Part shown: piece after piece, positions 41,433-64,000 of the stretch
How the letters are laid out: each line of letters begins with the position of its first letter
How positions within the stretch are numbered: the stretch's first letter is position 1
Source: Lactarius indigo
Lineage: Eukaryota > Basidiomycota > Agaricomycetes > Russulales > Russulaceae
NCBI GenBank assembly: GCA_025766275.1
Contig: JAFKAC010000008.1
Location: 1,116,001 to 1,180,000, forward strand
Direction: 5' to 3'
Length of the DNA: 64,000 nt
The notes under the pieces: generated by a model
Database searches by the model: none
Told to the model about the DNA's origin: nothing
Seen by the model: the letters and a program-made list of their open reading frames with translations, nothing else
Program-made: the position numbers and the translations under genes

Positions 41433-41878
41433 TGTTACGAATCAGCGCGTTGTACCCTTACTGTACCGGTTGTGGTTACGGCTGTAAGGTATATTAGTCA
41501 CGGACTCGGGGTTTACGATAGGAGTTAGGCGTTGAGAGATGACTCGATCCTAGTACAAGTAGTAGTAGTATTAGGATTGCGGTACTTACGCGATACGTTG
41601 GACGCTACGATACGACGACTCATAGCAGCGCTTGAAAGCCTGCTTTTCTTGTATTTAAGGTAGCTGCGGAAGACCAAGATACGCCATCTTGGTCTTCTTC
41701 AATCGTCACTTCTTGTCTATCCACGTCTTGTTGCGTCCTCATTAAGGAGGAGCGCCTTTGCCAAGATCTCAAGTGTCTGTGCACATCTTGATTCCGCCTT
41801 CGAGCCATACGCCTAGAGCGTGATCAGCTAAGTCGCCTTGTCAAGCTCAAGTCGAGCTAACGTCGTGACGGCGTTACA
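41433..41878 (+). repeat. 5' LTR of element A
   Basis: Starts TGTTACG and ends CGTTACA. It contains a TATTTAAGG promoter-like box (about 41652) and, about 30 nt downstream at 41686, the sequence complementary to the PBS. An inverted repeat AGACCAAGAT / ATCTTGGTCT (41671-41695) could form a hairpin there. Confidence 0.95.
41652..41660 (+). promoter_or_regulatory. TATA-like box in LTR of element A
   Basis: TATTTAAGG about 30 nt upstream of 41686, the inferred transcript 5' end. Confidence 0.5.
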
Positions 41879-41880
41879 TT

Positions 41881-41891
41881 AAGACCAAGAT
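41881..41891 (+). other. Primer-binding site of self-priming type
   Basis: AAGACCAAGAT starts two bases after the 5' LTR and is exactly complementary to ATCTTGGTCTT at 41686-41696 inside the LTR. In Tf1-type elements the first 11 nt of the transcript fold back onto the PBS to prime minus-strand DNA. No tRNA-type PBS is present at the LTR edge. Confidence 0.7.
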
Positions 41892-41899
41892 TTCTCATC

Positions 41900-43912
41900 G
41901 TGGCGACTGTTAATACCCGAGATCAGTGGACGAACTTCCGTCCCTACTACTTGGAACGAAGAGGAGACCGCAACGTACCAACCCGATTCCTGGGAGCGGC
42001 CCGGTGGAGAGACCGAGGAGACGAAACAGGATACTTCGTCGAGTTCAACGGACCTACAAGGTTCCGACCTGTTGAGTTCAATTTTGACCATTTGTGTTGG
42101 GTAGAGGTTACGTGGAACCCCGTAGATCATCGCTGGGACGTCGTAAGACCAGCAGGAAGGCAGTACCAGTGCGACATTGACGCACGTGAGCTCAACTCAC
42201 GAGCCGACTGGGGGCCTATTGACGGCCAGTTACGAGAACACTCTACTGGAGAAGCAGTTAGTGAAGAAACTGAGGAAGACGACCAAAGCGAAGAACAGCG
42301 ACCCGCGAGTATCGGACCCATTGAACAATATACCATCCAACGAGCTGAGTCACTCCATATTTCGGATCAGCCAGAAGTCATTCACGTACGATCACCGGCG
42401 GCAGAAATGGCAACTACCACCATGACCACCGAAGAAGTTATAGCCGCCAGAGAACAGGCGATGCAAGAAGCAGCCGAAGCAATCCGGCAAGAGTCACAGA
42501 GGAACCTCATGCCCATCAATCCCGAAACAGGGCATCGCATGACTGCAGACGACGCAGCAATTTTTCGAGCCATCGGACCAGATCAAGGGGACCCTCCGTC
42601 AGGAGAAGGGGGTAGACGAGGCATATCACTAGACCCTCCACCAGGATGGGGAGGGCCACCCGGAGACGACTTTCCCAGACGACCAGATAGAGGGGGAAAT
42701 CCACCAGACATTCCAAACAACCCACCAGGCGGAGGCGGAGGCCCACCAGGTGGAGCTGGAGGAGGTCCACCAGGTGGAGCTGGAGGAGGTCCACCAGGTG
42801 GAGGCGGAGGGGGACACGAAAAACTGACCGGTGAACCTCCCACTATTTTTGACGGAGATCGCACTAAGGTCGATTCATTCCTTACACAATGGCACGTATA
42901 TTGGGGCATGAACCTCGACACCCCCGTTATGCGCAACGACTATCGACGATGCCTCCTCTTTCTCTCCTACATCAAGGGAGTATCGGTCAGCGAATGGGTA
43001 CTCTCGTACCTCAAATGGCTCAACCGACAAATACAAAGAGGCATCGATCAACATACGAGAGACTTGTGGAACGCAGTAGCAGAGGGTTTTAACCAAAGGT
43101 TCGTCAATACCCTCGAACGAGAGCAAGCTCAAGCCCTGTTGAGAAAGGGGCTAAAAATGGTCGATGGAGACATCGACAAATACGTCAACGAATTCGAAGA
43201 AGCCGCCAGGAAGGCTGGCTATCGCCTCAACGATCCCCAGACCATCGACTTGTTCACCAAGGGGCTACCCAAGAAATTATACGAGAAGACCTACGATCTG
43301 GACGAGCCAGAAACCTTCGACGAGTGGAAGCGGGCAACACTCCGACGACAACGTAACTACATCCACATCCGAGCTAGGGTGGATGAGTACAAAGACACGA
43401 AGCCGAAGAAGACAGGCAACGCCGGATGGACTATCCCGCAAAATCTCGCAAACCCCTGGGCCATGGATACCTCGGCCGACCGAACAAAAGCGCGATTGGC
43501 AGGATCCGAGGAGATCGATTATAGCAAACCACCATACACGAGTCCACCTCCCTTCCCGCCAAGAGGAGGACCGGGGGTGAGGGGACGAGGCAGAGGGGGG
43601 TCACGACGGGACCTTAGGACAGTATTGTGTTATAACTGTAACGCGCCGGGACACCTCTCACGAAACTGCCCCCATCCCAGACAGCCACGACAGTGGCAGA
43701 CGCAAAACGCGGGACCCTCGAACATGCGCACAACAGAAACCGATTATTATACACAAGAACCGCCCCCAGCCCAAATACAAGCTGCCTCTACCGGTAAAAC
43801 AGCGGAGGAACGTGCCAAGGAGTGGCTCACCGGGGTCGCAAACGCACCAGACGAGGTGAAGGATTTGATACTACAAGACTTGTGGGGAAAAGAGGGTTTT
43901 CGGAGCGCCTGA
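41900..43912 (+). CDS. Gag of element A, non-AUG start
   Basis: The open frame begins at or near a GTG (41900) with A at -3 and G at +4. The first ATG is only at 42407. The part before that ATG is clearly coding: YYLERRGDRNVPTRFLGA, then GYFVEFNGPTRFRPVEFN, then WVEVTWNPVDHRWDVV. The last pattern resembles the Gag N-terminus of element B (GKNVRWNFVNEQWIY). The middle is Gly/Pro-rich, then comes a capsid-like helical region (KYVNEFEEAARKAGYRLNDP, IDLFTKGLPKKLYEKTYD), and at about residue 576 a CCHC zinc knuckle (CYNCNAPGHLSRNC). It packages RNA in virus-like particles. It ends at the TGA at 43910, 19 nt after the first slippery site. Confidence 0.85.
   Translation: MATVNTRDQWTNFRPYYLERRGDRNVPTRFLGAARWRDRGDETGYFVEFNGPTRFRPVEFNFDHLCWVEVTWNPVDHRWDVVRPAGRQYQCDIDARELNSRADWGPIDGQLREHSTGEAVSEETEEDDQSEEQRPASIGPIEQYTIQRAESLHISDQPEVIHVRSPAAEMATTTMTTEEVIAAREQAMQEAAEAIRQESQRNLMPINPETGHRMTADDAAIFRAIGPDQGDPPSGEGGRRGISLDPPPGWGGPPGDDFPRRPDRGGNPPDIPNNPPGGGGGPPGGAGGGPPGGAGGGPPGGGGGGHEKLTGEPPTIFDGDRTKVDSFLTQWHVYWGMNLDTPVMRNDYRRCLLFLSYIKGVSVSEWVLSYLKWLNRQIQRGIDQHTRDLWNAVAEGFNQRFVNTLEREQAQALLRKGLKMVDGDIDKYVNEFEEAARKAGYRLNDPQTIDLFTKGLPKKLYEKTYDLDEPETFDEWKRATLRRQRNYIHIRARVDEYKDTKPKKTGNAGWTIPQNLANPWAMDTSADRTKARLAGSEEIDYSKPPYTSPPPFPPRGGPGVRGRGRGGSRRDLRTVLCYNCNAPGHLSRNCPHPRQPRQWQTQNAGPSNMRTTETDYYTQEPPPAQIQAASTGKTAEERAKEWLTGVANAPDEVKDLILQDLWGKEGFRSA
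42732..42815 (+). repeat. In-frame Gly/Pro minisatellite in gag of element A
   Basis: About three tandem units of roughly 27 bp encode GGPPGGA-type repeats. Length is likely to vary between copies. Confidence 0.7.
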
Positions 43913-50010: not shown

Positions 50011-51001
50011 TTAAGGGTCGACGTCCGCGTTGGCCAAGGTGTCCACATGATGAGCTTGCCAAGGTAAGGACGCGTAAATAAGAGCCGCTATTTTTCTAGG
50101 CGCGCCCGGGTTTGAGGAATGGAATTCCTTAACCGCATCAGGGGCATGCGCTAGATTTTTAGCTGGTTCCCAAGTGTCCTCACCCTCACCGTATCCTTTC
50201 CAACGGATGAGGTATTTAAGAGTACGACCAAAGAGTCTGGAATCTCTTATATGGTCAACTTCGTACTCTTCTTCTCCTTCGACCGTTACTGGATCGGGTG
50301 GTGGAGGCGTAAGCCCATTGACTTCGTTTCCTTTATAAGGAGAGAGACGGTCTACATGAAATACATCATGGATCCGTAATGCAGGGGGTAATGCAAGCTT
50401 GTAGTCGACATCACTTATGACTTTAGTGACTTCAAATGGGCCCAATTGCTTTGGTCCCAGTTTGGATGACTGCTGATGTATCTTTATTTGTTTAGCTTGC
50501 AACCAAACTCTATCCCCGACGTTAAAGGAATATGGCTTAGTCCTTTGTTCAACGTCTGTCTGCATTCGCCTTTTACTTAGGCGTAGAGCCGCCTCCGCAT
50601 CCTTTCGAGCGGAAACTAAGTGCTGAAGGCGCTTATCGAGCAATGGAATACCCGTAGGTCTACCAGCAGGAATAGTGAAGTCAGGCGTAAAGCCGTATAG
50701 TAGCTCAAAGGGTGTATGACCCGTAGCTGAGTTGAGCCTACTATTGACTACGAATTCTGCTGTAGGAAGCAGGTCTGCCCAATCATCTTGTCTCTTGCTA
50801 ATGAACATGCGCAAATATATCTCAACTTCTTGATTCTTGCGCTCAACCTGTCCATTAGCTTGAGGATGATAGGCTGTGGTTAGACCTGCGTCTATTCCGA
50901 GTCGCTTATAGAGGGCACGCATGCTTCGCGCTGCAAATTGGGGTCCCCTATCGCTTATGACTTTGCGAGGGATCCCGTGCAGGGGGAAGACTTGCTCAAA
51001 G
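50011..51001 (-). CDS. Pol C-terminus of element C: integrase and chromodomain, partial
   Basis: Open on the minus strand from the junction at 51001: FEQVFPLHGIPRKVISDRGP (integrase core, first part missing), TTAYHPQANGQVERKNQEVE (catalytic Glu region), then the GPF/Y-like module (KLGPKQLGPFEVTKVISD), then a chromodomain (EEYEVDHIRDSRLFG, LKYLIRWKGYGEGEDTWEP). It ends about 60 residues after the chromodomain. The N-terminal domains (protease, RT, RNase H, zinc finger) are not in the window because element B inserted here. No internal stop codons are seen, so the element was fairly young when it was split. Confidence 0.85.
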
Positions 51002-51459
51002 TGTCACGAACCTATAAACCTGGTCGTGACTCAAGGCGCTTAGGACCGGACCGGGCTTATGTCATCAGCTTCCTAAAGGGGAAATCCGAAATCGGAGTTT
51101 GAATTTCGCTCTCCGACGGTCACGTGATGTGTCACGTGATTACTCTGTCTTTCCAAGTCACATGTGTACATGCACGTGTATCAATCAACGATTGATCGTT
51201 TATCGATCAACGAAGATAATCAACCAAGTCACAAGGAACACGTGTTCTAATCACAGGTTCCGCAGCTGCTGCGGAATCACGCCACTATGGCGCAATATGG
51301 CGCCATCGACTGCGGCGCAGTCGTACCATGCTTATCCTGTATTCTGATTGGACAGTATTAATATCTCGTCTCTGGAATGTTCCAACCCGCAGTATTGCGC
51401 AGCACTCGTGGACAGGCCCTAAGCCTGCCCTAAAGTTACGCACAGACCATTCCCTGTAG

Positions 51460-51467
51460 TATATAAG
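51460..51467 (+). promoter_or_regulatory. TATA box in LTR of element B
   Basis: TATATAAG; transcription would start near 51490, so only a short piece of the LTR is transcribed at the 5' end. Confidence 0.65.
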
Positions 51468-51482
51468 CTAGCTCAATCTATC

Positions 51483-51503
51483 GGACAGTCCCTCAGACTG
51501 TCC
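51483..51503 (+). other. Hairpin at the presumed 5' end of the element B transcript
   Basis: Perfect inverted repeat GGACAGTC / GACTGTCC with a five-base loop, about 20 nt after the TATA box. Confidence 0.65.
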
Positions 51504-51507
51504 ACTT

Positions 51508-52989
51508 GTGACATCTTCCCTCTTGCCTCTCAGCTCCTTCGAGTGCCCCACCTTGTGTGCGCCACTATCTTCTTTGAGCCAAGAACGCCTCCTCTTCGCC
51601 CACGTCGACACCCTCTCCGTCTCTACCTCGCCCGCTGTCGTCTTCAAACGTACCCCTCGCTGTCGAGTGACAGTGAGTTCACCACACTTGGACAGTCTCT
51701 CCAATAGACTGACCTCGGGCTTCCCAGTGACTGACTATACCTACGAGTACGACTTCTCGCAGTACGGTCAGTGGGACGGAGACTCTGCCAGCTACCAGTC
51801 AGAGTTCGACAACCAAGGTAGCCCCCTCGACTTTTCCCGTACCTCCCCTGTCCCCTCCTCCTCTGCTGTCCGTCTTGACAGCCTCCGCTTCACCGCCCCC
51901 TACACCCCCGCCACCTTTGGTGGTGACGAGCCCCCCGCCCCTGTTGCCCTCGTTCGGGACGCAACCCCCGAACTAGTTTACCCTTACGCTCCGGCTGAAG
52001 AAGCCACCCCTCGTCCATCCCCTCGTCCCTTGTCCCCCAGCACCGCCCAGTTCTACCAAGAGGTCCTTGAGATCATCGACCTCAACGGGAACGTCGTCCC
52101 CTTGACCCCCGAACCCCGCGCCGAGTCTGCGCCTCCCCCCCGAGTCCCGACCCCCCGCCCCCCTATCTCCCTTCGTGGCTCTCCTTCGCCACCTCCTGTA
52201 TTTCCTCCGACTCCTCATCGCTCTCCGTCTCCTGTTCCGGTCCCCTCCCGCCTTGCGACCCCCGACTCGCCAATTGACTACGAGCGAGTAGCAGAACAAG
52301 GCCCCGTCTTTCCTCCGGCCCCTCACCCCGAACAAGAGAACCTCCCTCCCCTCGGCCCCACCGCCTACCAGGCCCCTCCTTGCCTCCTTTCCCAAGGAGA
52401 ACACCCCCACCAGTACATCTCCATCGTCACCCCCCAAGGAGAATCTTGGCGGCCCGCTTCCACGACCCTCCGGGAACTGATTAGTAGAGTTCCCCTCGCC
52501 ACCTCACTCGCTAATTTCCCTCCGGTCTTCCCTTCTGTTACCCCTTTCCGTCTCCTTCCCCCTCACGTCTACACCCTTTTCCTGCGCAACGTTGACCCCG
52601 CTCAACACCCCGACTTTCCTCCCTTATACATCTGTTCCAAGGCCATCTACGACCTTCCCTCCCCTGACACCCCCCTCGGAACTATCCGATACGATTTCAG
52701 GGAAGGACTGAGACGTGCCTTCGCCCCCCTCGCTAACGTACACAGGGCCGGATATATTGACTCTCTAGTGACGCTAGAGATCCAGGACTTTTTGGACGGG
52801 AGAATCGTTACCACTTACGGACACTTGCGCTTCTCTTTTAACGGACTTATTTACGCTCACCAGCAGGCTTATTTCTTTGAGGACTTGGTTCGTTCTGCCC
52901 CTCATCTTCTTGCCTACTGTCTTTCGCCTCGTATTCCTGCCAACCCCTTTAGTTTCATTTCTACCTTTCCCGATGACCAGCCACTTTAG
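51508..52989 (+). CDS. ORF1 of element B, about 490 aa, no ATG
   Basis: Open from the end of the LTR to the TAG at 52987-52989, with no Met codon at all. A GTG at 51508 is only the most 5' near-cognate codon considered; the real start is unknown. The N-terminal two thirds are Pro/Ser-rich (FPPTPHRSPSPVPVPSRLAT). The C-terminal third looks folded (PPHVYTLFLRNVDPAQHPDF, REGLRRAFAPLANVHRAGY, LEIQDFLDGRIVTTYGHLRF, LIYAHQQAYFFEDLVRSAPH). Codons strongly favour C in the third position, which supports translation. I recognise no family. It could be a structural or movement-like accessory protein, but that is open. Confidence 0.6.
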   Translation: MTSSLLPLSSFECPTLCAPLSSLSQERLLFAHVDTLSVSTSPAVVFKRTPRCRVTVSSPHLDSLSNRLTSGFPVTDYTYEYDFSQYGQWDGDSASYQSEFDNQGSPLDFSRTSPVPSSSAVRLDSLRFTAPYTPATFGGDEPPAPVALVRDATPELVYPYAPAEEATPRPSPRPLSPSTAQFYQEVLEIIDLNGNVVPLTPEPRAESAPPPRVPTPRPPISLRGSPSPPPVFPPTPHRSPSPVPVPSRLATPDSPIDYERVAEQGPVFPPAPHPEQENLPPLGPTAYQAPPCLLSQGEHPHQYISIVTPQGESWRPASTTLRELISRVPLATSLANFPPVFPSVTPFRLLPPHVYTLFLRNVDPAQHPDFPPLYICSKAIYDLPSPDTPLGTIRYDFREGLRRAFAPLANVHRAGYIDSLVTLEIQDFLDGRIVTTYGHLRFSFNGLIYAHQQAYFFEDLVRSAPHLLAYCLSPRIPANPFSFISTFPDDQPL

Positions 52990-52993
52990 ATAA
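52973..52993 (+). CDS. Six-codon minicistron starting at the only leader ATG
   Basis: ATG at 52973 begins MTSHFR and stops at TAA 52991-52993. It overlaps the end of ORF1 in another frame and ends inside a small hairpin. It is the only AUG between the inferred transcript start and the gag AUG. Confidence 0.35.
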   Translation: MTSHFR

Positions 52994-52997
52994 GTGG
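52981..52997 (+). other. Hairpin enclosing the ORF1 stop codon
   Basis: CCACTT / AAGTGG with a five-base loop that contains the TAG of ORF1. Confidence 0.5.
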
Positions 52998-53014
52998 TTA
53001 TATATTTGCCTTGT

Positions 53015-53034
53015 CTTGAAACGAGTGTTTTAAG
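53015..53034 (+). other. GAGT-loop hairpin 1, after ORF1
   Basis: Stem CTTGAAAC / GTTTTAAG (one G-U pair) with loop GAGT, in the gap between ORF1 and OR2. Confidence 0.6.
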
Positions 53035-53076
53035 TGCAACGCAAAGTAAGTAAGTGTTTACTTATTTGGGTTTTGG

Positions 53077-53098
53077 ACTTAAATCGAGTGATTTAAGT
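53077..53098 (+). other. GAGT-loop hairpin 2, at the start of ORF2
   Basis: Perfect stem ACTTAAATC / GATTTAAGT with loop GAGT. The 3' arm contains the TAA that precedes ORF2, and it ends on the first bases of the ORF2 frame. Confidence 0.7.
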
Positions 53099-54080
53099 GC
53101 CGCCTTCTACTCCATTTACCTTCAACTTATCTGAAGAACAAAGGCTCGCACGAGCCCGAGTTAACTTCGAGTCCCACAGGCAGCGGCAACTTGACCGCTA
53201 TTACCCCGTCACTTCCACCTACGACCTCATCGATAACCCCCGTCTTGACTGTTGGACGGAACCCCCTACCGCCTTACGTACCCTTATCGACCTCTTTGAC
53301 TTTGGAGAAGTCATCCCCGAAAGGGTTTACCACGAGTTTATTGACAATCTTTCTGAAGTCGTTAAGGCTGCCGACGAGCAACTCCTTTATTGGCATCTTT
53401 CAAACTCCGTCTCTGCCACCAACCATCCAACAGACCAACTCCTAGTGTGGACCAAAAGCGACTATCTTTGGTTTGTCCACGTCCCCCCTCGTCGTGACCA
53501 CTACGTCCAGCAACTCGAAGACGGTTTCTCTCTTCACTTTGTTGACCGACTCCGCCTCACATACCAGGAAATACAGATTTCCTTCCAAGAAATTCGAGTG
53601 ATCATTCACCCCGACTCCACCCCCCGTCTAGTTATCTCCGATAGTTCGGAGTTCACTTACTCCTTCGCCACCTCTGTGTGGGAAACTACCTTGTCAAACC
53701 CTGACCGGAACCTTGTCAACCCAAGTATCTGGCACTACCCCCCTTCGACCTCTGACGACCCCGAGTTAGTATCAATCCTCAACGCCAGAGAAACTTTCCG
53801 GACTCCTCCCTTGCTCCGCCGGATTACAGATCGGCTTCCCCCTAGTTCCCCCAAAACTGAAGACGAATCTTCAGACTCCGACGTCTCCCTGCATAACGGA
53901 GATACTAACCAGCCGCCAAGTCCTAACGACGGTTGGGGACCAACTCTGACCTCCGGCCCCTGTTGGTGCTCTCAAGAAGTTTGCACCTGTGGTTATCGTC
54001 CTAACACCCCCCCGACACCCCCCAACGTAGTGTTGTGGTCCCCTGGAGTTAACTATCTACCTTATAGAGAAAAGGTTTAG
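53097..54080 (+). CDS. ORF2 of element B, about 327 aa, no ATG
   Basis: Opens directly after a TAA in hairpin 2 (first codon GTG) and runs to TAG at 54078-54080 with no Met codon. The product looks folded in the middle (TALRTLIDLFDFGEVIPERV, HEFIDNLSEVVKAADEQLLY, LVWTKSDYLWFVHVPPRRDH, DGFSLHFVDRLRLTYQEIQI) and has an acidic linker (SPKTEDESSDSDVSLHNGD) and a Cys-rich end (CWCSQEVCTCGYRP) that could bind metal. No known family. Expression must come from a non-AUG codon, reinitiation or recoding. Confidence 0.6.
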   Translation: MPPSTPFTFNLSEEQRLARARVNFESHRQRQLDRYYPVTSTYDLIDNPRLDCWTEPPTALRTLIDLFDFGEVIPERVYHEFIDNLSEVVKAADEQLLYWHLSNSVSATNHPTDQLLVWTKSDYLWFVHVPPRRDHYVQQLEDGFSLHFVDRLRLTYQEIQISFQEIRVIIHPDSTPRLVISDSSEFTYSFATSVWETTLSNPDRNLVNPSIWHYPPSTSDDPELVSILNARETFRTPPLLRRITDRLPPSSPKTEDESSDSDVSLHNGDTNQPPSPNDGWGPTLTSGPCWCSQEVCTCGYRPNTPPTPPNVVLWSPGVNYLPYREKV

Positions 54081-54100
54081 ATAGTATAGATTGTTGAGAT

Positions 54101-54122
54101 AAATTTTACGAGTGTAAAATTT
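54101..54122 (+). other. GAGT-loop hairpin 3, at the start of ORF3
   Basis: Perfect stem AAATTTTAC / GTAAAATTT with loop GAGT. As in hairpin 2, the 3' arm holds a TAA and ends on the first bases of the next ORF. Confidence 0.7.
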
Positions 54123-54804
54123 GACAAGTCAAATCCTGGATCCAATTCATTGGGCAATTAACCTGGCATCCTCACACACCGCCCAAAGAAGAACTCATCG
54201 TCGCTTCCAAGTGGACGATCGGCCCATAGCCTCTACCCCTAGTACCCCTGTTACCCCAAGAAGGGCCCCCAGAGCTCGTCGAGCTACCAACACCCAGATT
54301 CCCCTTCCAAGTATTAACCAAGCTGGTCCAAGTGAACCAGTGTACCCCAGTATCCAAGCAACTCCGGCTGCAAGACAGCATTCCACGAGCAGCGACGAAG
54401 CTCAGTATCTCGAGACCCAACCCCGAGAAATCCATTGTCATCTCCCTGAGGCTATCCTAGTAACCAAGAGCCTACCAACCAGAACCCCCCGAGAACTCGA
54501 CGTGTTCAGAAGACACTGTTCTCTGTTGTACCAAAACCGGCACAATCTTGAAACCCTGTACTTTTCCCAGCCCCTTACGCGCATAAGCGAGATTTCGACA
54601 AGCCCCTTGTATTTCCAAGACTTCTTGTGGAGAAGTAAGACAACCCTGACCCACTTTGGTATTTGGGAAGAATACCATTGGATCCGTCGTTCGCAAAGAC
54701 CCCATCGTCCGGATAGAGCTATCCTTCTCCCCGCATACAAAGTCTACTACCCCTGGAACCTGGACAGTTGGACTGTCACCCGTCTCACCAGAAGAGGTGA
54801 ATGA
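54121..54804 (+). CDS. ORF3 of element B, about 227 aa, no ATG
   Basis: Opens after a TAA in hairpin 3 (first codon TTG) and ends with a TGA that overlaps the gag ATG as ATGA. No Met codon. The N-terminal half is basic and Pro-rich (TPVTPRRAPRARRATNTQIP); the C-terminal half is aromatic and helical (FRRHCSLLYQNRHNLETLYF, LWRSKTTLTHFGIWEEYHWI, ILLPAYKVYYPWNLDSWT). No known family. The overlap suggests termination-reinitiation or leaky scanning into gag. Confidence 0.6.
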   Translation: MTSQILDPIHWAINLASSHTAQRRTHRRFQVDDRPIASTPSTPVTPRRAPRARRATNTQIPLPSINQAGPSEPVYPSIQATPAARQHSTSSDEAQYLETQPREIHCHLPEAILVTKSLPTRTPRELDVFRRHCSLLYQNRHNLETLYFSQPLTRISEISTSPLYFQDFLWRSKTTLTHFGIWEEYHWIRRSQRPHRPDRAILLPAYKVYYPWNLDSWTVTRLTRRGE

Positions 54805-56351
54805 ATACACAACGACCTCTCACACCAGAAGAAAAAGCCCACATCCCAGTATACTTTTTCGACCCATATTTTTCCCTCACCGATAATCTTTACTACACCA
54901 AGTGGAAGGAAGAGGATATCTGTAGTCCTACAGGAAAACACCCGTGGACAATAGTTGCCACCCAACACCAAATCGTTTTTCAAGACTTAAAAGAAGCCTT
55001 TCCTGGTATCGACAAGGTCACGGACTTAAACTACAATTCCCTACATGCCACTTTCAAGGGGAAGAACGTTCGTTGGAACTTTGTGAACGAACAGTGGATC
55101 TACCTAAACAACAAACCAGTCCATTTTAACACACCTAGTCAATCCAACGATTCAGACAGCGACACAGAGGAAGTATCGCAAATCCTAGACACTACTACCA
55201 AAAAACTCTCTGGTCTACTATCCCAAGTAACCTCCCGACCCTCGACACCCCAGATTTCCCCTAGTACCTCCGGTCCTAGCCGTTTCCCTGCAACAGTTCC
55301 CCCACATCGACTCCCATCACCACCCCTAACCGTTCAAGCCTCTTCCTCAGCACCCCCCTTACCTGTTCCTCCTGTACCCACTGCAATGGCAGCACCTGCA
55401 CCCGCAAAAATCTTAGGCGCAGCGCCTGAGCCCTTTGATGGCAAGCCCAACCATGCCGAAGCTTTTTGGAACAACCTAGCCAACTACTTCCACCTAAACC
55501 AAGATATCTTTAATTCAGACGATAAAAAGATATCTACTGCTCTCACCTACTTCAAGGTTGGGACCTCAGCCGGAGAATGGGCTCAAGATAGACAAAAGAA
55601 AGCCTTGAACCCAACCGGAGGAGTGGCAATATCCTTTGGCACCTGGGCGCAGTTCAAAACTGACTTTGATGCACACTTCGTTCCTGGTCATACTGCCATG
55701 GAATCCACCAACAAAATGTATTCTCTGAAGATGGGGACCCGACCTTTCAACGAATGGTTCCAAGAATGGTCAACCCATGCTACACGAAGTGGCGCAAACG
55801 AGCAAACCAAGATGTATGCTTTCCGACAAGCTATTCCAACGGCTCTAAACATGAAGCTGCTTGGCATATCCCCCATCCCTACCACCTTCGACACCCTTGT
55901 TGAGAAAGCAAGAGAATTCGATCGCGCCTATCGAATTTACGCTGGTCACGCCATTAACCAGTTTAACAAGACCCATAAGCCCACCACAGGACGAGCCGTC
56001 CTAGCAGAGGACGACAGCGTAAACGTCAACGCCTCCTCATCACGTACTACCAAACCAAGAACCAAACTTACCAAAGAAGAGCGGGAGTACCGCTTCAAGA
56101 ATAAACTCTGTCTGTACTGTGGCAAGCCAGGCCACGTCCTTAAAGAATGTCACGCCAAGACGGCAGCCATGAAGGCCAAAGGAGGCCAATCCAACAACAA
56201 CGCTAGGGCGCGCGGCGCCTTTGTTGATGAACCAAGTCAGGAGGAAGCACCTGCTGACCACCCAGCAAACATTGGAGCGATATATCGAGAGATACTCCCT
56301 TTTGACCCGGACGCACGCCCGCGTTCGGTGCCTATTAATGAGGATTTTTAG
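54801..56351 (+). CDS. Gag of element B
   Basis: ATG at 54801 overlaps the ORF3 stop. The N-terminal part (YFFDPYFSLTDNLYYTKW, ATFKGKNVRWNFVNEQWIYL) resembles the non-AUG-encoded N-terminus of element A Gag. Then comes a Pro/Ser linker, a capsid-like region (ILGAAPEPFDGKPNHAEAFW, YFKVGTSAGEWAQDRQKKAL, MGTRPFNEWFQEWSTHATRS) and a CCHC knuckle (CLYCGKPGHVLKEC, about residue 436). Met codons are frequent here, in contrast to the ORFs before it. It ends at TAG 56349-56351 after a run of five T. Confidence 0.85.
   Translation: MNTQRPLTPEEKAHIPVYFFDPYFSLTDNLYYTKWKEEDICSPTGKHPWTIVATQHQIVFQDLKEAFPGIDKVTDLNYNSLHATFKGKNVRWNFVNEQWIYLNNKPVHFNTPSQSNDSDSDTEEVSQILDTTTKKLSGLLSQVTSRPSTPQISPSTSGPSRFPATVPPHRLPSPPLTVQASSSAPPLPVPPVPTAMAAPAPAKILGAAPEPFDGKPNHAEAFWNNLANYFHLNQDIFNSDDKKISTALTYFKVGTSAGEWAQDRQKKALNPTGGVAISFGTWAQFKTDFDAHFVPGHTAMESTNKMYSLKMGTRPFNEWFQEWSTHATRSGANEQTKMYAFRQAIPTALNMKLLGISPIPTTFDTLVEKAREFDRAYRIYAGHAINQFNKTHKPTTGRAVLAEDDSVNVNASSSRTTKPRTKLTKEEREYRFKNKLCLYCGKPGHVLKECHAKTAAMKAKGGQSNNNARARGAFVDEPSQEEAPADHPANIGAIYREILPFDPDARPRSVPINEDF
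56343..56351 (+). promoter_or_regulatory. Likely -1 frameshift site at the gag stop of element B
   Basis: GAT TTT TAG in the gag frame. A tRNA on TTT can slip one base back in the T run and then read TTA GGC in the pol frame, which is open directly from here. Confidence 0.5.
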
Positions 56352-59300
56352 GCTCTTCCATCGTAGCACTGTCGATTGGAAGTATTCGTGCCAGTAGCGT
56401 TGTACACGGCCTTTCCCTACTAGAGACGCTCGGAGCCGAGCATGTACCTGCAGAAACAATTCGGAATAGGAGAGCTCCTTCAATTGTTCTCAGAGTTACA
56501 CTAGTAGGAAAGAAGTCTGGCAAAGAAATCAGTGCCCGTGCCCTGTTGGACAGTGGTGCGGAGGGCATCATCGTGGATGATGGGTTTGCGCGTGCAAACA
56601 ACCTAACAATGCGAACACTAATTAAACCCTTACCAGTTAGAAACGTGGATGGGTCTCCCAACAAGATGGGATCTGTTAGGTATACTACGATCCAGAGACT
56701 ACGGATCAGAACTTCTGATGACAACTACCACGACGAAACTGTGGAACTCTATGCAACTACTCTAGGGGAGCACGATATAATCTTAGGAACAGATTGGCTC
56801 CAAGCGCATAATCCGGAAATCGATTGGCATCAACCAAAAATAGCCTTCACCCGATGCCCAAAAACCTGCACCCTGTCCTCCTCAGCGGTTGTCATCTCTT
56901 CGAAAACACCACAAACGCGACATACGACTATTAACATCCTTGAACTCGACCTTGAACAAGAAACCTGCCTCCCTGTGAACGACGAAGTTGAACCCCTGGA
57001 ACCGACCTTCATCCAAGATGCCTGCGAACCCTGGCTGTGGATTCACAGCTTCAACAAGTACGACCACCTTGCCATCCGATCCAAAGTAACTACAAGCACC
57101 AAGATAGCAGCACGAACTGCACCCAAGCCTTCCAGCGACCACATTCCGAGTCACTTCCAACGCTACACCAAAGTATTCAGCGAAACTGCGTCCCACCGAC
57201 TACCCAAACACCAACCTTGGGATCATGCCATCGATCTCAAACCAGGAGCCACTATGAAGAATTGTGGCATTTATCGACTTACGCCAAAAGAATCCGATGC
57301 CCTCAAGGAATACATCTCTGAACACCTAAAGAAAGGTTACATTCGACCATCTAAGTCACCCATGGCCTCCCCCTTCTTCTTTGTCGACAAAAAGGATGGC
57401 AAACTCCGACCTGTGCAAGACTACCGTGCCCTCAATGATATAACCATTAAGAACGCAGCACCCCTTCCCCTTATCCCTGAACTTATCGACAAACTCCATG
57501 GCGCGCGCTACTTTACCAAGCTAGATATTCGTTGGGGTTACAACAATATCCGCATCCGCAAAGGTGATGAATACAAGGCAGCCTTCAAAACATCCTTAGG
57601 ACTTTTCGAGCCAACCATAATGACGTTTGGCCTCTGCAACGCCCCTGCCACTTTCCAAACATTCATGAATCAAATCTTCGAGTCCTTGATTGACGGTGGA
57701 CACGTAGTGGTCTACCTCGATGACATCTTAATCTTTACAGAAGATATCTCCTCTCTTACAGCATTGACACACGACGTGCTTCAACAGCTGGAACGCCACG
57801 ACCTCTACCTGAAACCTGAGAAATGTACATTTGCACAAACCTCAGTCGAATACCTTGGAATCATCATTTCCGATGGACAAGTTTCTATGGACCCTGCAAA
57901 AGTTGCGGGCATTACCCAATGGCCCACTCCGCGCACTGTCAAACAGGTCCAAGCCTTCCTAGGCTTTTGCAACTTCTATCGACGCTTCATTAAAGACTAC
58001 TCCACTATCGCCCGCCCCTTGTTTGATCTGACCAAGAAAGACGTTCCCTTTTCTTGGGATACCGCGGCGGAAAGCGCTTTCCGCACCCTGATTACATGCT
58101 TCACCAAGGCTCCTGTCCTTGCCCTGCCTGACCATTCTAAACCCTTCCGCCTCATCACTGACGCAAGTGATTTTGCTACCGGTGCCATTCTAGAACAACC
58201 TGATGCCTTGCAACGTTGGCACCCCGTCGCCTTCCTTTCTAAATCCCTCCTTCCTGCCGAACGTCACTACGAAATCTGCGACAAAGAACTTCTTGCCATC
58301 ATCCATGCCCTACATGCTTTCCGTCACTACCTGGAAGGGCGGGATGACGTTACTGAAATCTGGTCTGACCATGGCAACCTTGTCTATTTTACTACGAAAC
58401 AAAAACTTTCCCGACGACAAGCCCGTTGGGCCCTATTCCTCTCTCGCTTCCAGTTCATCATCATCCACAAACCAGGAACGCAGAACAAATCTGATGCACT
58501 GTCTCGGTGTCCAGATCATAAAAAGGGGATAGCGGATGAAGATGAAAAGCGAGTGCTCCTGGACACCAAATATTTTTCCATCAACGCAGTGCAGAGGACT
58601 GCAGTAACCATTCACGGTGATACCACCCTCCGACAACGTATCAAAAGCACTCAGACCTATGACAAGGAAGTCAGCATGGCTCTAGAATCCCTCTTAAAGA
58701 ATGGCCCTCGATCCCTAGCTAAAGGCCTAGAAGAGTGGAACTTAGAAGACGGTATTATCTTGTTCAAAGGACAAGTCTATGTTCCCAAAGATGACAACCT
58801 ACGAAGAGACATCGTTAAGACATACCACGACCACATCGCCACAGGACATCCAGGACGATGGAAAACCTATGAATTAATATCCCGAGACTTCTGGTGGCCA
58901 GGGATATCAACCTTCGTTAAAACCTACGTTGATGGTTGCGCCACATGTCAAGCCACTAAAATCAAACCACGTACCCAAGTACCCCTACAACCAAATGCAA
59001 TACCTGAAGAAATATGGGGAACCATCACAATGGACTTCATCACCGACCTTCCCCTATCCCACAACTACGATTCACTATTTGTTGTGGTTGACCGACTCAG
59101 CAAAGCTATAGTTATTTCCCCTTGCAACAAAACCATCACCGCAGACGAAACAGCTCAACTCTATCTTGAAAACGTCTGGAGACGTACTGGCCTACCTCGA
59201 CAGGTCATCTCCGACAGAGGCCCCCAATTTGCATCAAAAGTCATGCAAGAAATCTGGAACAAACTTGGAGTCAAGTCCACACTGTCTACAGCTTTCCACC

Positions 59301-59872
59301 CACAAACCGATGGAGAAACCGAACGTGTTAACCAAGAACTCGAACAGTACCTTCGAGTCTTCTGCAACTTCCAACAAGATAACTGGGTGGATCTAATTCC
59401 ATTCATGGAATTTGCACACAATGCCCGACAACACAGCGCGACCCACAAGTCACCCTTCGAGGTTTGGTATGGATACAAACCAGAGTTCATCCCCCCTACC
59501 CACTTTACCACCAAAATACCCGCAGCCGAGGAAAGATTAAATGCGCTAAATCAAATCCGCTCCGAAGTTACTGCAGCCCTTAAGGTAGCAGCGGAAGTCA
59601 TGAGAGGATCGAAACTATCTACCCCCTCTCACGAGTTCAAAACAGGCGATCTAGTCTGGCTGGAAGGGACCAACATCCATACTACCCACCCCAAGGCTAA
59701 ACTTGCTCCACGACGCCACGGCCCCTTTAAAGTCATTTCCACCTGGGGGGTCAATTGCAAGCTTCAACTTCCCAAGACATGGCGCATTCACCCAGTCTTC
59801 CACAACTCCTTGATCTCTCCATACAAAGAAAACACCATACATGGCCCCAACTTCACCAGACCACCCCCTGAA
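56345..59872 (+). CDS. Pol polyprotein of element B, cut by element D
   Basis: The frame is -1 relative to gag and is open from the T run at 56345 (FLGSSIVALSIGSIRASSVV). Protease LLDSGAEGIIVDDGF, RT (LDIRWGYNNIRI, VVVYLDDILIFTEDISS), RNase H LITDASDFATGAILEQ, integrase finger (HPGRWKTYELISRDFWWPGI, CATCQATK), core (MDFITDLPLSH, HPQTDGETERVNQELE) and the GPF-like module (HGPFKVISTWGVNCKLQL). It stops in LTR sequence of element D right after HGPNFTRPPPE, so any chromodomain has been separated. All catalytic motifs are intact. Confidence 0.88.
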
Positions 59873-60489
59873 TGATGAACAGCAAACACAGAGGGCATAC
59901 TCACAGAGACAAAGTAGACTGTGGTGAGATATGCTGGAGGTAGCTGGAAGCAGAGGTGTAACAGGGGATCTTGCAAGTAAAGCAGGGAGTCTGGCACACA
60001 AACAGTGAGAACTGATGTTATACATTGGAGGGAAGGGAGCTTACCTGGCACACAAACAGTGAGAACTGATGTGGACCAGGAGCGTACATGCTACTCTACT
60101 TATACACTTTCTGGGAGTGACACTATACAAGGGATGTAACACAAGTCACGTACTACAAGACAGTTATTGTTCTACAAACGGACAAAGGAATGCACGTTCT
60201 GAGAACAAGTGCAGAAAGAACAAGGAGAGTCTAGAAGTAAGTGATATCATAATGACATCATAATAAGGATAGAACAAAAGGAGAACAAAGAAAGATACAA
60301 GAACGCATAGTACAATGAAAGGTCTGGATATGTCCATATGATGTCACTGTACATGATGTCATAGATAAAGTAGTCCGAGATTGTCCAGATCAAATCTAAT
60401 CTAAAGCGGTCCTAATTAATCTACAGCAGTCCGTATCTGTAAGTCCGGTCCGTAAGAGCCGCTAAGTGCGCAAGGGTCACTTATCAACA
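59873..60489 (-). repeat. 3' LTR of element D
   Basis: On the minus strand it starts TGTTGATAAG at 60489 and ends TCATCA at 59873. It contains two copies of a 28-bp direct repeat (59991-60018, 60045-60072). The low border could also be 59876; the 5-bp target duplication cannot be tested here because the other end is outside the window. Confidence 0.7.
59991..60072. repeat. 28-bp direct repeat inside LTR of element D
   Basis: Identical copies at 59991-60018 and 60045-60072, starting CTGGCACACAAACAG. Confidence 0.9.
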
Positions 60490-60501
60490 TCTCCCCGTGA
60501 T
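60490..60501 (-). other. Polypurine tract of element D
   Basis: CACGGGGAGA on the minus strand between the pol stop codon and the LTR. Confidence 0.6.
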
Positions 60502-60508
60502 CTACAAT

Positions 60509-63500
60509 CTAAGTACACACAAGTCCCATGTCATCGTTGTGCTTCTGCAGCAGGACACGTGGTAGTGACTTTGTAAAGCCGTCCGCAACCATATCTACAG
60601 TAGGAGTTCTAATGAGGGTGATGGTCCCCTTTTCGATGTACTCCCGAATGACATGATGCCGTATGGCAATGTGCTTAGACCGTCTCCCAGTGACAGGGTT
60701 CAAGGCCAAGTCAATGGCACCCTTATTGTCACCATGAAGCGGGATGGGGTCGTCGACCTCGTACCCGAGTTCCGTGAGGAAGCTCTGATACCACGCAGCC
60801 TGGTTAGCCGCGTCGGTCATGGCCATGTATTCCGCTTCCGTTGTGTTTTGGGCAACAGTCTTTTGCTTGCGCGAAGACCAGCTTATTGCACCGTTAGCTA
60901 GTAGGAACACATAACCAGAGGTGGAGTGGCGGTCATCAGTCTGATCAGCCAGACTGGAATCAGTGTAGCCGTGGAGGCCATCGCCATTGGCGCCATCGTA
61001 AACAACACGCATATCCATAGTTCCCACTAAGTAGGACAGGACATACTGCGCAAGTCGCAGATGTTGTGGTGAGGGGTTCGCTGCGTACTGCGCCAAACGT
61101 GACACAGCGAAGGAGATATCTGGCCTAGTGCCAATCTGCACATAAAGCAGACTCCCAATCAAAGACTGGTAGTGGGAAATATCTGAGGCAGTTGCCTGCG
61201 ACGTATATTTAACCAAGTGCTCGTCAGCACCAGCGGGCAAAGGTGTGTTGTGTGGTGTGGCATCAGACATGCCAAAGCGTTCAAGGACATCCTTGATGTA
61301 ACCAGACTGATCTATTTTGATGCGTCTGAGGGAGCGGTCGCGCACAATGCGCATACCAAGATAAGACTCTATCTCCCCGAGATCTGTCATCTCATAGCGT
61401 TCAGACAAGTCTGATTTAAGACGCTTGATTCCACTCAACGAGGGACCCAGTATAGTGATGTCGTCAACGTAGACAATAACGAAGAGTGGATCATACCCCT
61501 CCCGTTGAGGCATCACATATATGCCAGCATCAGCAAACGTCCGCTTAAAGCCGAGTGCAGTGAGCACTCCATGGAATTGCAAGTTCCATGCGCGGGAGGC
61601 CTGTTTGAGACCATAGATCGCCTTAACTAGGCGACACACCTTCGTCTCAGAGCCAGTGACAGTGAAACCTTGTGGCTGCTCCATGTAAATCTCCTCGTCA
61701 AGCACGCCATTGAGAAAAGCAGACTTAACATCCATCTGATGGATGTGCCAGTCCTCCAGCGCGGCCAACGCCAGAAGTAAACGTAGCGACTCAAATCGTG
61801 CAACGGGAGAGAAGGTTTCATCAAAATCTACGCCAGGGATCTGCGTGAATCCCTTAGCCACCAAGCGAGCTCTGTAGCGGCCATCCGCTTTGAGCTTAAA
61901 GACCCATTTGGATTTTACTGCCTTACGATTAGGCGGGAGATCCACTAACTCCCAAGTCCCATTCTTAGCTAGGGCGTCCATTTCATACTGACACGCCTTA
62001 GTCCACTCATCTGCAGCTGCAGACCGCATGGCCTCTGCATAAGTTGCAGGGTCTCGGCCCACAAAAGCAGCAGCCAATAACTCCGCATACCCCAGGCGCC
62101 TGCCGCGCCATGCCGCATTGTCCGCATTGAAGTAACGCGGATTAGGGACTGGGGCACGAGCACTGCGCCTTGGTGCATTGTCCATCTCGCGCAACAGCTG
62201 ACTACGCTGTGCACGATCCTCAAATCCCCCAGGCATTTCTGGTGAGGGAGGAGGGACATGGCGCATAATGCGCGTTGCACTAGGACGCGGCGGGGGAGAA
62301 GTGGGAGTGGCTTGCTCACGCTTTGGTGTGGTGGGCGGAGCCGGCAGAGCAGGTGGTGGAGTGGTGGGGCGTGGTTGGACTTGTGGGGGGTCTAGGAGCT
62401 TTTCAACATCCTCCTCCTCACTACTACTGGAGTGTGCAGGGGAGGGGGCTTGCATTGGTGGTAACGCCGGCGGGTGAGGCACGGCAGTCACTGTTGTGCT
62501 AGGCACGACTGGTGGTGAAGGTGTGGGGTGTGTCTCAACACCCTGGAGGGACGGGAAGCTACTCTCGTCGAATGTCACATCCCTGGACACTCGGACGGAG
62601 TGGGTTGAGCGGTCCCAGAGCTTATAGCCCTTAGATTCGGGCTCAAACCCGATAAGCGTGACCTCAATGGCCTTCGCATCCAATTTGCGACGCTTATCAG
62701 CGGGTATGTGCATGTACCCCTTGCATCCAAAGACGCGAAGATGTGAGACATCGGGCACTTTGCCAGAGTGCCAGAGCTCATAGGGAGTGCGCCATTTAAG
62801 CCCACGGACTGGAGAGCGGTTATAGATGTGCACAGCTGCGCACACTGCATGCTCCCAGAAGCCTTTAGACATGCCAGCTGTGTGGAGCATGGACATTGCC
62901 TTATCCATAATGGTGCGGTTAAACCGCTCGGCTTTCCCGTTGGACTGCGGTGAACCCGGCATCGTGAGGTGATGCTCTATCCCTTTCTGCTTAAGAATGT
63001 CCTGCGTGACACTCGACATGTATTCGCCACCACGGTCAGAGTGCAGAGCGTGCAGTTTATGGCCAGACTGGGTTTCACCCCAGGCCAAATACATCTGCAG
63101 CGACTTAGCAAACTGGTCCTTCGACTTAAGGAAGTGAACCACAGTGAACTTAGTGTGGTCGTCTATGAAGGTGGCAGTGTAGGTCGAGCCTTGCAGAGAC
63201 TGAGTCTGCATAGGACCGGCGAGGTCACTGTGCACAATCTCAAATTGGCGAGTTGTCCTCTTGTTGGAGGATGCAGAAAAGGGCTGGCGAGTGGACTTGC
63301 CCATCTCGCACCCACGGCAGACTGTGTGGACCGTGGTAGAGCTTTCTATGTCCATGCCAGTAGTGGCAGAGGGACCATGCGCCTTCAGCGCTGCAGAGGA
63401 GATGTGTCCCATGCGTTGATGCCAGATATCAAGTGTGGCAGCACTTGATTTTGTGTGGGCGTTGAGGCCGACGCTGGCTGCGTCCAACCAGTAAAGGTTG

Positions 63501-64000
63501 TCCTCAAGGTAGCCTTTGGCCACACATTTTTGGTTGATAGATATTTTAAATGAGCCACTATCAAAGGCGATCTCAGCACCTTTTTGTGCTAGGGCGCGCG
63601 TCGACAAGAAGCGCGTCTTCACCTGTGGTAGGTGTAGCACATTGCTTAGGGTGATGGAGATACCCTGGCTCGTAGTAAAGACGACAGACCCGACACCCAC
63701 TTGGTCTATTGTGGACTTATCCCCTAGGCGTACAGTGCCTTTGGTTGGGGTATAGTCTTTGAAGTCAGACCGATGTGGTGTAATGTGGTGTGTAGCACCA
63801 CTGTCCATCATCCAACGCACACGCGAGGCAGCATACAAGGCAACAGAAATAGATTGAGAAGCCCAGTCTATGGCGGGCTCTTCGACCTCCTTAATGGAGG
63901 CGGTGGTAGGTACAAGAATATGACTATTTGCGGCCTTGTTGCCTGCCTTCTCCTTCTCCTTTGCGTCAGCCTCATCCTTCTTTTTCTTCCTGCAGTCAGG
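60509..64000 (-). CDS. Copia polyprotein of element D, N-terminus beyond window
   Basis: The minus-strand frame is open from the right edge. It begins at the end of a zinc knuckle (PDCRKKKKDEADAK), then protease MMDSGATHHITPH, integrase finger (HQRMGHISSAALKAH, CRGCEMGK), integrase core (SDLAGPMQTQSLQG, FIDDHTKFT, GSPQSNGKAERFNRTIMDKA), a Pro-rich linker, RT (ARLVAKGFTQIPGVDFDETF, MDVKSAFLNGVLDEEIYMEQ, VIVYVDDITILG) and RNase H (TEAEYMAMTDAANQAAWY, LHGDNKGAIDLALNP, SKHIAIRHHVIREYI). It ends MVADGFTKSLPR ... DDMGLVCT at 60509. It has no stop or frameshift over the visible part and looks competent. It probably represents the latest insertion in the stack B/C/D. Confidence 0.93.
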   Translation of the reverse strand, partial: PDCRKKKKDEADAKEKEKAGNKAANSHILVPTTASIKEVEEPAIDWASQSISVALYAASRVRWMMDSGATHHITPHRSDFKDYTPTKGTVRLGDKSTIDQVGVGSVVFTTSQGISITLSNVLHLPQVKTRFLSTRALAQKGAEIAFDSGSFKISINQKCVAKGYLEDNLYWLDAASVGLNAHTKSSAATLDIWHQRMGHISSAALKAHGPSATTGMDIESSTTVHTVCRGCEMGKSTRQPFSASSNKRTTRQFEIVHSDLAGPMQTQSLQGSTYTATFIDDHTKFTVVHFLKSKDQFAKSLQMYLAWGETQSGHKLHALHSDRGGEYMSSVTQDILKQKGIEHHLTMPGSPQSNGKAERFNRTIMDKAMSMLHTAGMSKGFWEHAVCAAVHIYNRSPVRGLKWRTPYELWHSGKVPDVSHLRVFGCKGYMHIPADKRRKLDAKAIEVTLIGFEPESKGYKLWDRSTHSVRVSRDVTFDESSFPSLQGVETHPTPSPPVVPSTTVTAVPHPPALPPMQAPSPAHSSSSEEEDVEKLLDPPQVQPRPTTPPPALPAPPTTPKREQATPTSPPPRPSATRIMRHVPPPSPEMPGGFEDRAQRSQLLREMDNAPRRSARAPVPNPRYFNADNAAWRGRRLGYAELLAAAFVGRDPATYAEAMRSAAADEWTKACQYEMDALAKNGTWELVDLPPNRKAVKSKWVFKLKADGRYRARLVAKGFTQIPGVDFDETFSPVARFESLRLLLALAALEDWHIHQMDVKSAFLNGVLDEEIYMEQPQGFTVTGSETKVCRLVKAIYGLKQASRAWNLQFHGVLTALGFKRTFADAGIYVMPQREGYDPLFVIVYVDDITILGPSLSGIKRLKSDLSERYEMTDLGEIESYLGMRIVRDRSLRRIKIDQSGYIKDVLERFGMSDATPHNTPLPAGADEHLVKYTSQATASDISHYQSLIGSLLYVQIGTRPDISFAVSRLAQYAANPSPQHLRLAQYVLSYLVGTMDMRVVYDGANGDGLHGYTDSSLADQTDDRHSTSGYVFLLANGAISWSSRKQKTVAQNTTEAEYMAMTDAANQAAWYQSFLTELGYEVDDPIPLHGDNKGAIDLALNPVTGRRSKHIAIRHHVIREYIEKGTITLIRTPTVDMVADGFTKSLPRVLLQKHNDDMGLVCT

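Follow-up and report, generated by a model that had tools for sequence, protein, structure and literature searches.

A 3.3-kb AUG-poor leader with three conserved Met-free open reading frames in a Ty3/gypsy retrotransposon of Lactarius indigo: a probable case of leaky scanning past non-AUG starts

The closest described parallel to the locus reported here is rice tungro bacilliform virus (RTBV), whose open reading frame (ORF) I starts at a non-AUG codon, whose ORFs I and II lack internal AUG, and in which leaky scanning across some 900 nt gives access to the later ORFs (PMC5902531). Leaky scanning also serves the tetracistronic TGB-p42 RNA of shallot virus X, an allexivirus, which is AUG-free but for two start codons and starts TGB3 at CUG (at one place the source says ACG; PMC12389679). 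Among retrotransposons, the MDG1-group (412) elements of Drosophila carry conserved sORF1 and sORF2 of about 110 aa between the long terminal repeat (LTR) and gag, one of them transmembrane and fusogen-like (PMC11952523). Our study concerns a Ty3/gypsy element in a 64,000-nt stretch of Lactarius indigo DNA (assembly GCA_025766275.1, contig JAFKAC010000008.1, positions 1,116,001 to 1,180,000), called the window below; positions are those of the window, and all features of the element lie on its plus strand. Upstream of gag this element has a leader almost without AUG that holds three long Met-free frames. On the sequence evidence laid out here, it is probable that this long AUG desert persists because it permits leaky scanning, while three protein families that appear to lack known relatives are initiated inefficiently at non-AUG codons. 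Our literature searches found no earlier description of such an AUG-free leader in an LTR retrotransposon.

The element shows the RTBV type of polycistronic layout, in which a main ORF is preceded by long ORFs that have no internal AUG and begin at non-AUG or weak starts. Like RTBV and the badnaviruses (Caulimoviridae), it is reverse-transcribing and would have a non-AUG first start, and the RTBV features to which an earlier, sequence-only reading of this DNA likened it are confirmed by the RTBV account (PMC5902531). As described there, RTBV differs in having a uORF (upstream ORF)-driven shunt before ORF I and in that only ORF I starts at a non-AUG codon, ORF II having an AUG, whereas all three upstream ORFs of the element appear to use non-AUG starts. 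The desert of the element is also 3.3-3.9 kb long, and it is found in a fungal host and in an LTR retrotransposon with integrase. The Caulimoviridae are episomal pararetroviruses without LTRs and integrase; membership in that family was rejected for the element, which has LTRs, a target-site duplication (TSD) and integrase. Shallot virus X resembles the element in leaky scanning through an AUG-poor region and in a non-AUG start, but it is a plant RNA virus with one non-AUG ORF, and its proteins differ by name from those of the element. The MDG1 elements share the Ty3 type and the accessory ORFs between LTR and gag; their ORFs, however, are short, and the portion of the source available describes neither an AUG desert nor a non-AUG start (PMC11952523).

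Between 51514 and 54800 our recount agrees with the sequence-only reading in finding a single sense ATG in the window copy, at 52973. The same interval has 28 CAT, and ATG is its rarest triplet. That reading had set the expectation at about 51 from equal base use; a first-order Markov model gives 19.5 instead for 51494-54800, an observed-to-expected ratio of 0.05, while the next most depleted triplet stands at 0.61. The leader's two ATG-free runs, of 1596 and 1828 nt, exceed all others in the window, whichever strand is read. The count also falls below a null that keeps amino acids and codon usage: with the three ORFs combined, the window copy (L001) has 1 ATG against 9.0 expected (P 0.0004), and two loci of a second family, introduced below, have 0 against 8.6 (L032; P 0.0002) and 1 against 8.1 (L033; P 0.001). 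Met is absent from all 969 residues of ORF1-3, where 12.3 would be expected at the rate of the remaining gag plus pol (P 4e-6). No ATG depletion was seen over the whole gag (20 vs 20.9 expected) or the whole pol (55 vs 47 expected) of the same element.

Other copies were sought in the genome of the window itself (90.3 Mb, 291 contigs). A leader DNA query gave at least 49 matches, at least 29 of them over the whole query (40 of 330 candidates scored), and 30 loci were fetched, one of which (L030) lacks the first 296 nt of the leader. Eleven of these loci have no leader ATG, eight have one and five have two, the remaining six having 3, 4, 5, 6, 9 and 9; the two loci with nine are decayed, and antisense counts run from 22 to 43. 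Most copies keep ORF1-3 and have few ATG (0 or 1 in 19/30 loci). An ORF2 query matched the genome 126 times, with 70 rows of at least 84% identity over at least 300 residues (51 stop-free), and it also exposed a second family at 49-56% identity (22 such rows, 11 stop-free), which has an ORF2 about 55% identical and the same layout as family 1; ORF1 and ORF3 queries gave similar match lists. The leader of the second family (3.4 kb) has 0, 0 and 1 ATG vs 38, 35 and 36 CAT in L031, L032 and L033. The strand check proposed in the sequence-only reading came out as predicted, the depletion being confined to the sense strand in the family copies as in the window copy. Several counts below use 34 loci, 30 of family 1 and four of family 2.

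The few ATGs that do occur are shared by few copies. After the near-duplicates L004, L007, L016 and L027 were dropped, 26 copies held 40 distinct ATG sites, of which 28 are in one copy, 11 in two and 1 in three; at 26 of the 40 the commonest reading in other copies is ACG, a sign of cytosine decay. With L030 also dropped (25 copies), ATG-creating minor alleles make up 22/517 singletons, 14/326 alleles in two or three copies and 0/409 of those in at least four copies (Fisher P 2.5e-6, singletons vs at least four copies). The same test showed no significant difference for CAT (28/517 vs 17/409, P 0.44), ACG (P 0.84), GTG (P 0.09) or CTG (P 0.07). Under a looser allele rule, 7/409 alleles in at least four copies create an ATG.

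The desert holds three long frames, which the sequence-only reading had put at about 490, 327 and 227 codons; 327 is exact, and the others measure 505 (stop to stop) and 228. ORF1 (51727..52989) has 420 codons from GTG 51727, ORF2 (53097..54080) has 327 codons from GTG 53097, straight after a TAA, and ORF3 (54136..54804) has 222 codons from CTG 54136 and ends in a stop that overlaps the gag AUG (ATGA); all three are Met-free. The third-position C bias reported earlier is present, C ending 49, 42 and 34% of codons in ORF1, 2 and 3. Median ratios of nonsynonymous to synonymous substitution (dN/dS) within family 1 are 0.13, 0.07 and 0.09 for ORF1, ORF2 and ORF3, beside 0.09 for gag, which amounts to strong purifying selection; between families they are 0.16, 0.24 and 0.08, at synonymous divergence (dS) of 1.0-2.1. 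In family-1 loci that cover at least 80% of the ORF, no in-frame stop occurs in 25/29 (ORF1), 23/30 (ORF2) and 27/30 (ORF3). As dN/dS lies far below 1 and the frames are mostly stop-free, the three frames are genes, and the earlier proposal that AUG is selected against while coding capacity is preserved is supported by the copies, by dN/dS and by the codon-preserving null.

Constraint on each frame sets in at an invariant non-AUG codon. For ORF1, GTG 51727 is present in 32/32 alignable loci (the region is missing from L030 and L034), frame-shifting net indels occur in 28/32 loci in the 37 nt upstream and in 0/32 in the 200 nt downstream, and in a codon alignment of 27 loci this GTG is one of only two among 25 Val codons that never vary. 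In 34/34 loci the GTG of ORF2 (53097) stands directly behind a TAA (TAAGTG), and it is the sole never-varying Val codon of 24. CTG 54136 of ORF3, flanked by A at -3 and G at +4, is found in 34/34 loci by codon alignment and belongs to the 3/21 ORF3 Leu codons that never vary; CTG 54163, also invariant, is an alternative start. Frame-shifting net indels affect 24/34 loci in the 55 nt upstream of CTG 54136 and 0/30 family-1 loci in the 200 nt downstream, and the -4 that four family-2 loci show downstream is ascribed to a nucleotide alignment one column off at their CTG. We infer from these patterns that initiation occurs at GTG 51727, GTG 53097 and CTG 54136.

The borders of the desert coincide with a predicted transcript start and with the first gag AUGs. 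A conserved TATA box (GTATATAAG, 51459) precedes a predicted transcript start with AGACTGTCCA at 51495 (together 51459..51504), and the ATG border lies about 34-35 nt after the TATA box. In 29 copies ATGs are frequent in the LTR's unique 3' region (U3; around -116, -127 and -163 relative to 51494) and nearly cease at the border, the last upstream ones standing at -133 to -106, -85/-81, -55 or, in 3 copies, -12. The repeat and unique 5' part of the LTR (R/U5) is hypervariable, with many indels, yet nearly ATG-free. The depleted stretch had been described as running from the LTR to gag, but the LTR in fact reaches 51686, so that the stretch begins inside R/U5, at the predicted transcript start.

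Downstream, the desert meets the gag frame (54801..56351), whose first AUG has the weak context TGAATGA, shared by 29/34 loci; four family-2 loci have TGTATGA, and L028 has lost the AUG. Met codons had been thought common in gag right after the leader, but codons 2-195 are without Met, and the desert runs 582 nt into gag, with no ATG in any frame from +3 to +584 in 25/34 loci (the exceptions are L001, L011, L012, L018, L022, L023, L024, L028 and L029). For this early part of gag the codon-preserving null expects 3.7 ATG in the window copy, where 1 is seen (P 0.04). The next gag AUG, at +585 (55386), is in frame, has the strong context GCAATGG and lies upstream of the capsid homology. In seven family-1 loci (L014, L022, L025-L029) the gag start reads differently (GAATGAG or GAATAAG) and the +585 ATG is missing, and in L008 this ATG is one base off; by its sequence, the leader is in those seven loci also joined to a second gag type. 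Gag dS is 0.39 between families and 0.44 within family 1, whereas ORF1-3 reach 1.0-2.1 between families. Gag being no more diverged between than within families, while ORF1-3 are far apart, leader and gag appear to have changed partners between lineages, a pattern suggestive of recombination that swaps leaders. A family-1 ORF2 is paired with a family-2-like ORF3 at places on contigs C273 and C255.

The gap between ORF1 and ORF2 (52990..53096) is structured. Its fold has a z of -4.1, with 0/200 shuffles equally good, and it contains hairpins at 53015-53034, 53044-53067 and 53077-53098, two of them with C-GAGT-G loops. No significant fold was found for the gap between ORF2 and ORF3 (z 0.14), the start of U5 (0.58), its end (51640-51740; -1.48), the gag start (-0.03) or two ORF controls (0.85 and -1.59). 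A scan for perfect hairpins (stem at least 8, loop 3-6, overlapping registers counted apart) gave 18 in the leader, where 100 Markov sequences have 2.4 on average and 7 at most. Four hairpins with unlike stems (51656-51677, 53015-53034, 53077-53098 and 54100-54123) have a GAGT loop closed by C-G in common, and each lies upstream of an ORF start. The one at the end of U5 (51656..51677) is the same in L031-L033, and the one before ORF3 (54100..54123) is found in family 1 only, not in that form in L031-L034. Paired changes between the families preserve the stem of the hairpin that touches the ORF2 GUG, which in family 2 has a bulge of one base; the stem pairs are CTTAAATC/GATTTAAG, CTTAAACC/GGTTTTAAG and CTTATACC/GGTTATAAG, the latter two with a one-base bulge. 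CGAGTG occurs once in 54801-59875. Rfam gave no match.

Protein databases hold relatives of all three ORFs (19 for ORF2, 35 for ORF1 and 5 for ORF3, P0009 being counted in both the ORF2 and ORF1 lists), mostly Lactarius gene models and metagenomic sequences; for ORF2 the identity goes as low as 31%. Metagenomic or unnamed sources account for 25 of the proteins (13 related to ORF2, 7 to ORF1 and 5 to ORF3). Internal Met is absent from 22 of these and occurs once in each of the other 3; P0024, a further ORF1 relative with source ncbi, has three. In the Lactarius gene models, which are computational predictions and take in other stretches as well, the first Met is followed by 0-3 more, except for P0021 with at least 19. 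Six relatives with source jgi start with V (five) or L (one), never with M, and in P0002, P0005 and P0016, from the same source, V stands at the aligned ORF2 start. The initial M of the remaining metagenomic relatives is unreadable, because gene callers write M for any start.

Homology was looked for by Pfam, PDB and BFVD searches. ORF1, ORF2 and ORF3 of the window have no Pfam match; PADRE was weakly matched by 1/17 A1 members (E 0.0065), and 0/16 A2 and 0/7 A3 members match Pfam. A PDB sequence search with ORF1 and ORF2 profiles gave no match at E<=1. The structure model of ORF2 is confident for about residues 11-200 (169/327 residues with a predicted local distance difference test score, pLDDT, of at least 90), and Foldseek found no match for it at E<=0.001 in PDB or BFVD; the ORF1 model is poor. 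The three products are most likely accessory factors of the element, acting in particle assembly, RNA binding or host interaction.

We propose that an RNA starting near 51495 would be read by scanning ribosomes and would encode three proteins up to gag, with starts at GUG 51727, GUG 53097 and CUG 54136. These starts would be inefficient, so that most 40S subunits would scan past them, over 3-4 kb in all; since scanning past ORF1-3 must work, AUG would have been purged from every frame over 3.3 kb, or over 3.9 kb if the weak gag AUG is set aside. The hairpins may promote the weak starts. Gag would be started at the weak AUG 54801 and the strong AUG 55386, giving a long and a short form; AUG 54801 would also be reachable by termination-reinitiation, because the ORF3 stop overlaps it. 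Pol would follow by a -1 frameshift after gag.

How far is scanning needed to account for these features? Structure-guided internal entry or ribosome shunting, with hairpins delivering ribosomes to the non-AUG codon behind them and the ORFs left unscanned, could draw on the fold of the ORF1/ORF2 gap, the stem kept by paired changes up to the ORF2 GUG, the C-GAGT-G loop common to four hairpins, and the RTBV landing site, which has a non-AUG start behind a stem (PMC5902531). We nevertheless think it unlikely: the other stretches tested, among them the gap before ORF3 and the end of U5, are not significantly structured, the hairpin preceding ORF3 differs in family 2, and a bypass removes the reason for an AUG purge inside the ORFs. 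Structure-guided entry may well act together with leaky scanning. Splicing, in which short or long introns would join the capped leader to ORF2, ORF3 or gag in a retrovirus-like manner and tie the desert only partly to scanning, strikes us as improbable. Strings like 5' splice sites do occur, GTGAGT at the LTR end (51673) in 32/34 loci and GTAAGT in the ORF1/ORF2 gap (about 53050) in 34/34, and some of the computed Lactarius gene models hold both ORF1 and ORF2 pieces. However, splicing does not need a purge in all frames, coding and non-coding, up to and into gag, the ORFs would remain without AUG starts, and a 3-kb intron is unusual in a mushroom. Avoidance of Met or AUG for a reason other than scanning, such as products of internal initiation or a host defence that reads translated AUG ORFs, would likewise purge all frames and is compatible with the strong conservation of the ORFs, but on that view neither border of the desert is accounted for, the upstream one at the predicted transcript start or the downstream one at gag AUGs whose contexts go from weak to strong; we consider it very improbable. 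A leader that is C-rich and G-poor (1170 C and 609 G in 51514-54800) might be expected to have few ATG and fortuitous frames, and yet pure composition or chance can be virtually dismissed in view of the 28 CAT marking the opposite strand, the Markov and codon-preserving nulls, dN/dS and the second family.

Leaky scanning from non-AUG starts, which we prefer, has its own difficulties, and the splice-like strings just named count among them. GUG is a poor start codon, and the ORF2 start has the weak context TAAGTGC in 34/34 loci. The indel test is uninformative for ORF2 (2/34 loci upstream, 0/34 downstream). The codon-preserving null is modest for single ORFs of the window copy (P 0.13, 0.004 and 0.10 for ORF1, 2 and 3) and strong only because the three are combined, and the allele counts are not independent draws, because the copies share ancestry. 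Two of the six CGAGTG sites in the leader (51540 and 53595) lie outside hairpins. Among the jgi proteins, P0013 begins inside ORF2, P0048 is unaligned at the ORF1 start and P0055 begins a few residues before the CTG. Finally, scanning over 3.3 kb would be about four times as long as the 900 nt documented for RTBV (PMC5902531).

If leaky scanning is at work here, the leader would be, to our knowledge, the longest natural AUG-free scanning path, and LTR retrotransposons would be able to code for several conserved proteins that, for want of an AUG, escape gene finders. Unannotated protein families would then be predicted in mushroom genomes and soil metagenomes, and the natural sequence variation would make testable both the distance that 40S subunits scan in vivo and the selection of GUG and CUG as starts. 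A wider reading, which we offer tentatively and with less than even confidence, is that the element has three consecutive long GUG/CUG cistrons encoding three new families without known relatives, that the repeated C-GAGU-G hairpin is a cis signal placing ribosomes at weak non-AUG starts, and that AUG deserts are a general expression plan of a fungal retrotransposon group. In this wider reading, another high-copy Ty3 family in this genome, taken up below, would be the simpler version of that plan.

The assignment of the element to Ty3/gypsy (Metaviridae) follows from TG...CA LTRs with a TSD (L002/L035), Gag, and the Pfam order protease-reverse transcriptase (RT)-RNase H-integrase in the window copy and L035. 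The 5' LTR (51002..51686) had its ends defined on copy L002/L035, where the LTRs are 679 bp long and 99.7% identical, the TSD is 5 bp (GTAAG) and the element measures about 9.8 kb by coordinates. It is of chromovirus type, since in L035 the pol product has a match to Chromo PF00385 at residues 1186-1237 (50.6 bits, cutoff 25.1); the window copy is cut before the chromodomain by an insertion at 59873. Two nt after the LTR lies a putative primer-binding site, TGGACAGTCT (51689..51698), the exact reverse complement over 10 nt of the predicted RNA 5' end AGACTGTCCA (51495), so that the element may prime itself in the Tf1 manner, or a tRNA may serve as primer. Reverse transcription of Tf1 RNA is primed by the RNA's own 5' end at the primer-binding site (PMC7175516). 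Tf1 and the sushi chromoviruses are Ty3/gypsy elements like ours. We know of no accessory leader ORFs in Tf1, unlike the present element. Pol (56342..59875; protease, RT, RNase H and integrase) follows gag in the -1 frame at GGATTTTTAGG and is interrupted by a copia-type insertion. The gag stop and the -1 pol frame meet at GATTTTTAG (56343-56351), a likely frameshift site of unusual sequence.

Insertions are nested around the element. The one in pol (59873-64000, minus strand), named as copia-type from its translation by eye, is cut by the window end, and at 50011-51003 on the minus strand the integrase and chromodomain of another Ty3 element adjoin the 5' LTR. The window also contains a member of the other high-copy Ty3 family (41539-43912; gag frame 41861-43912), for which three loci (L036-L038) show ATG-free runs of 868, 849 and 918 nt, each closed by a strong AUG. 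Upstream of this AUG the gag frame stays open over 175-182 residues that include no Met, and an extended Gag could start at a GUG in good context (ATCGTGGCG). Judged by its sequence, this family would seem to follow the same plan, but with one Gag only, extended from a non-AUG start.

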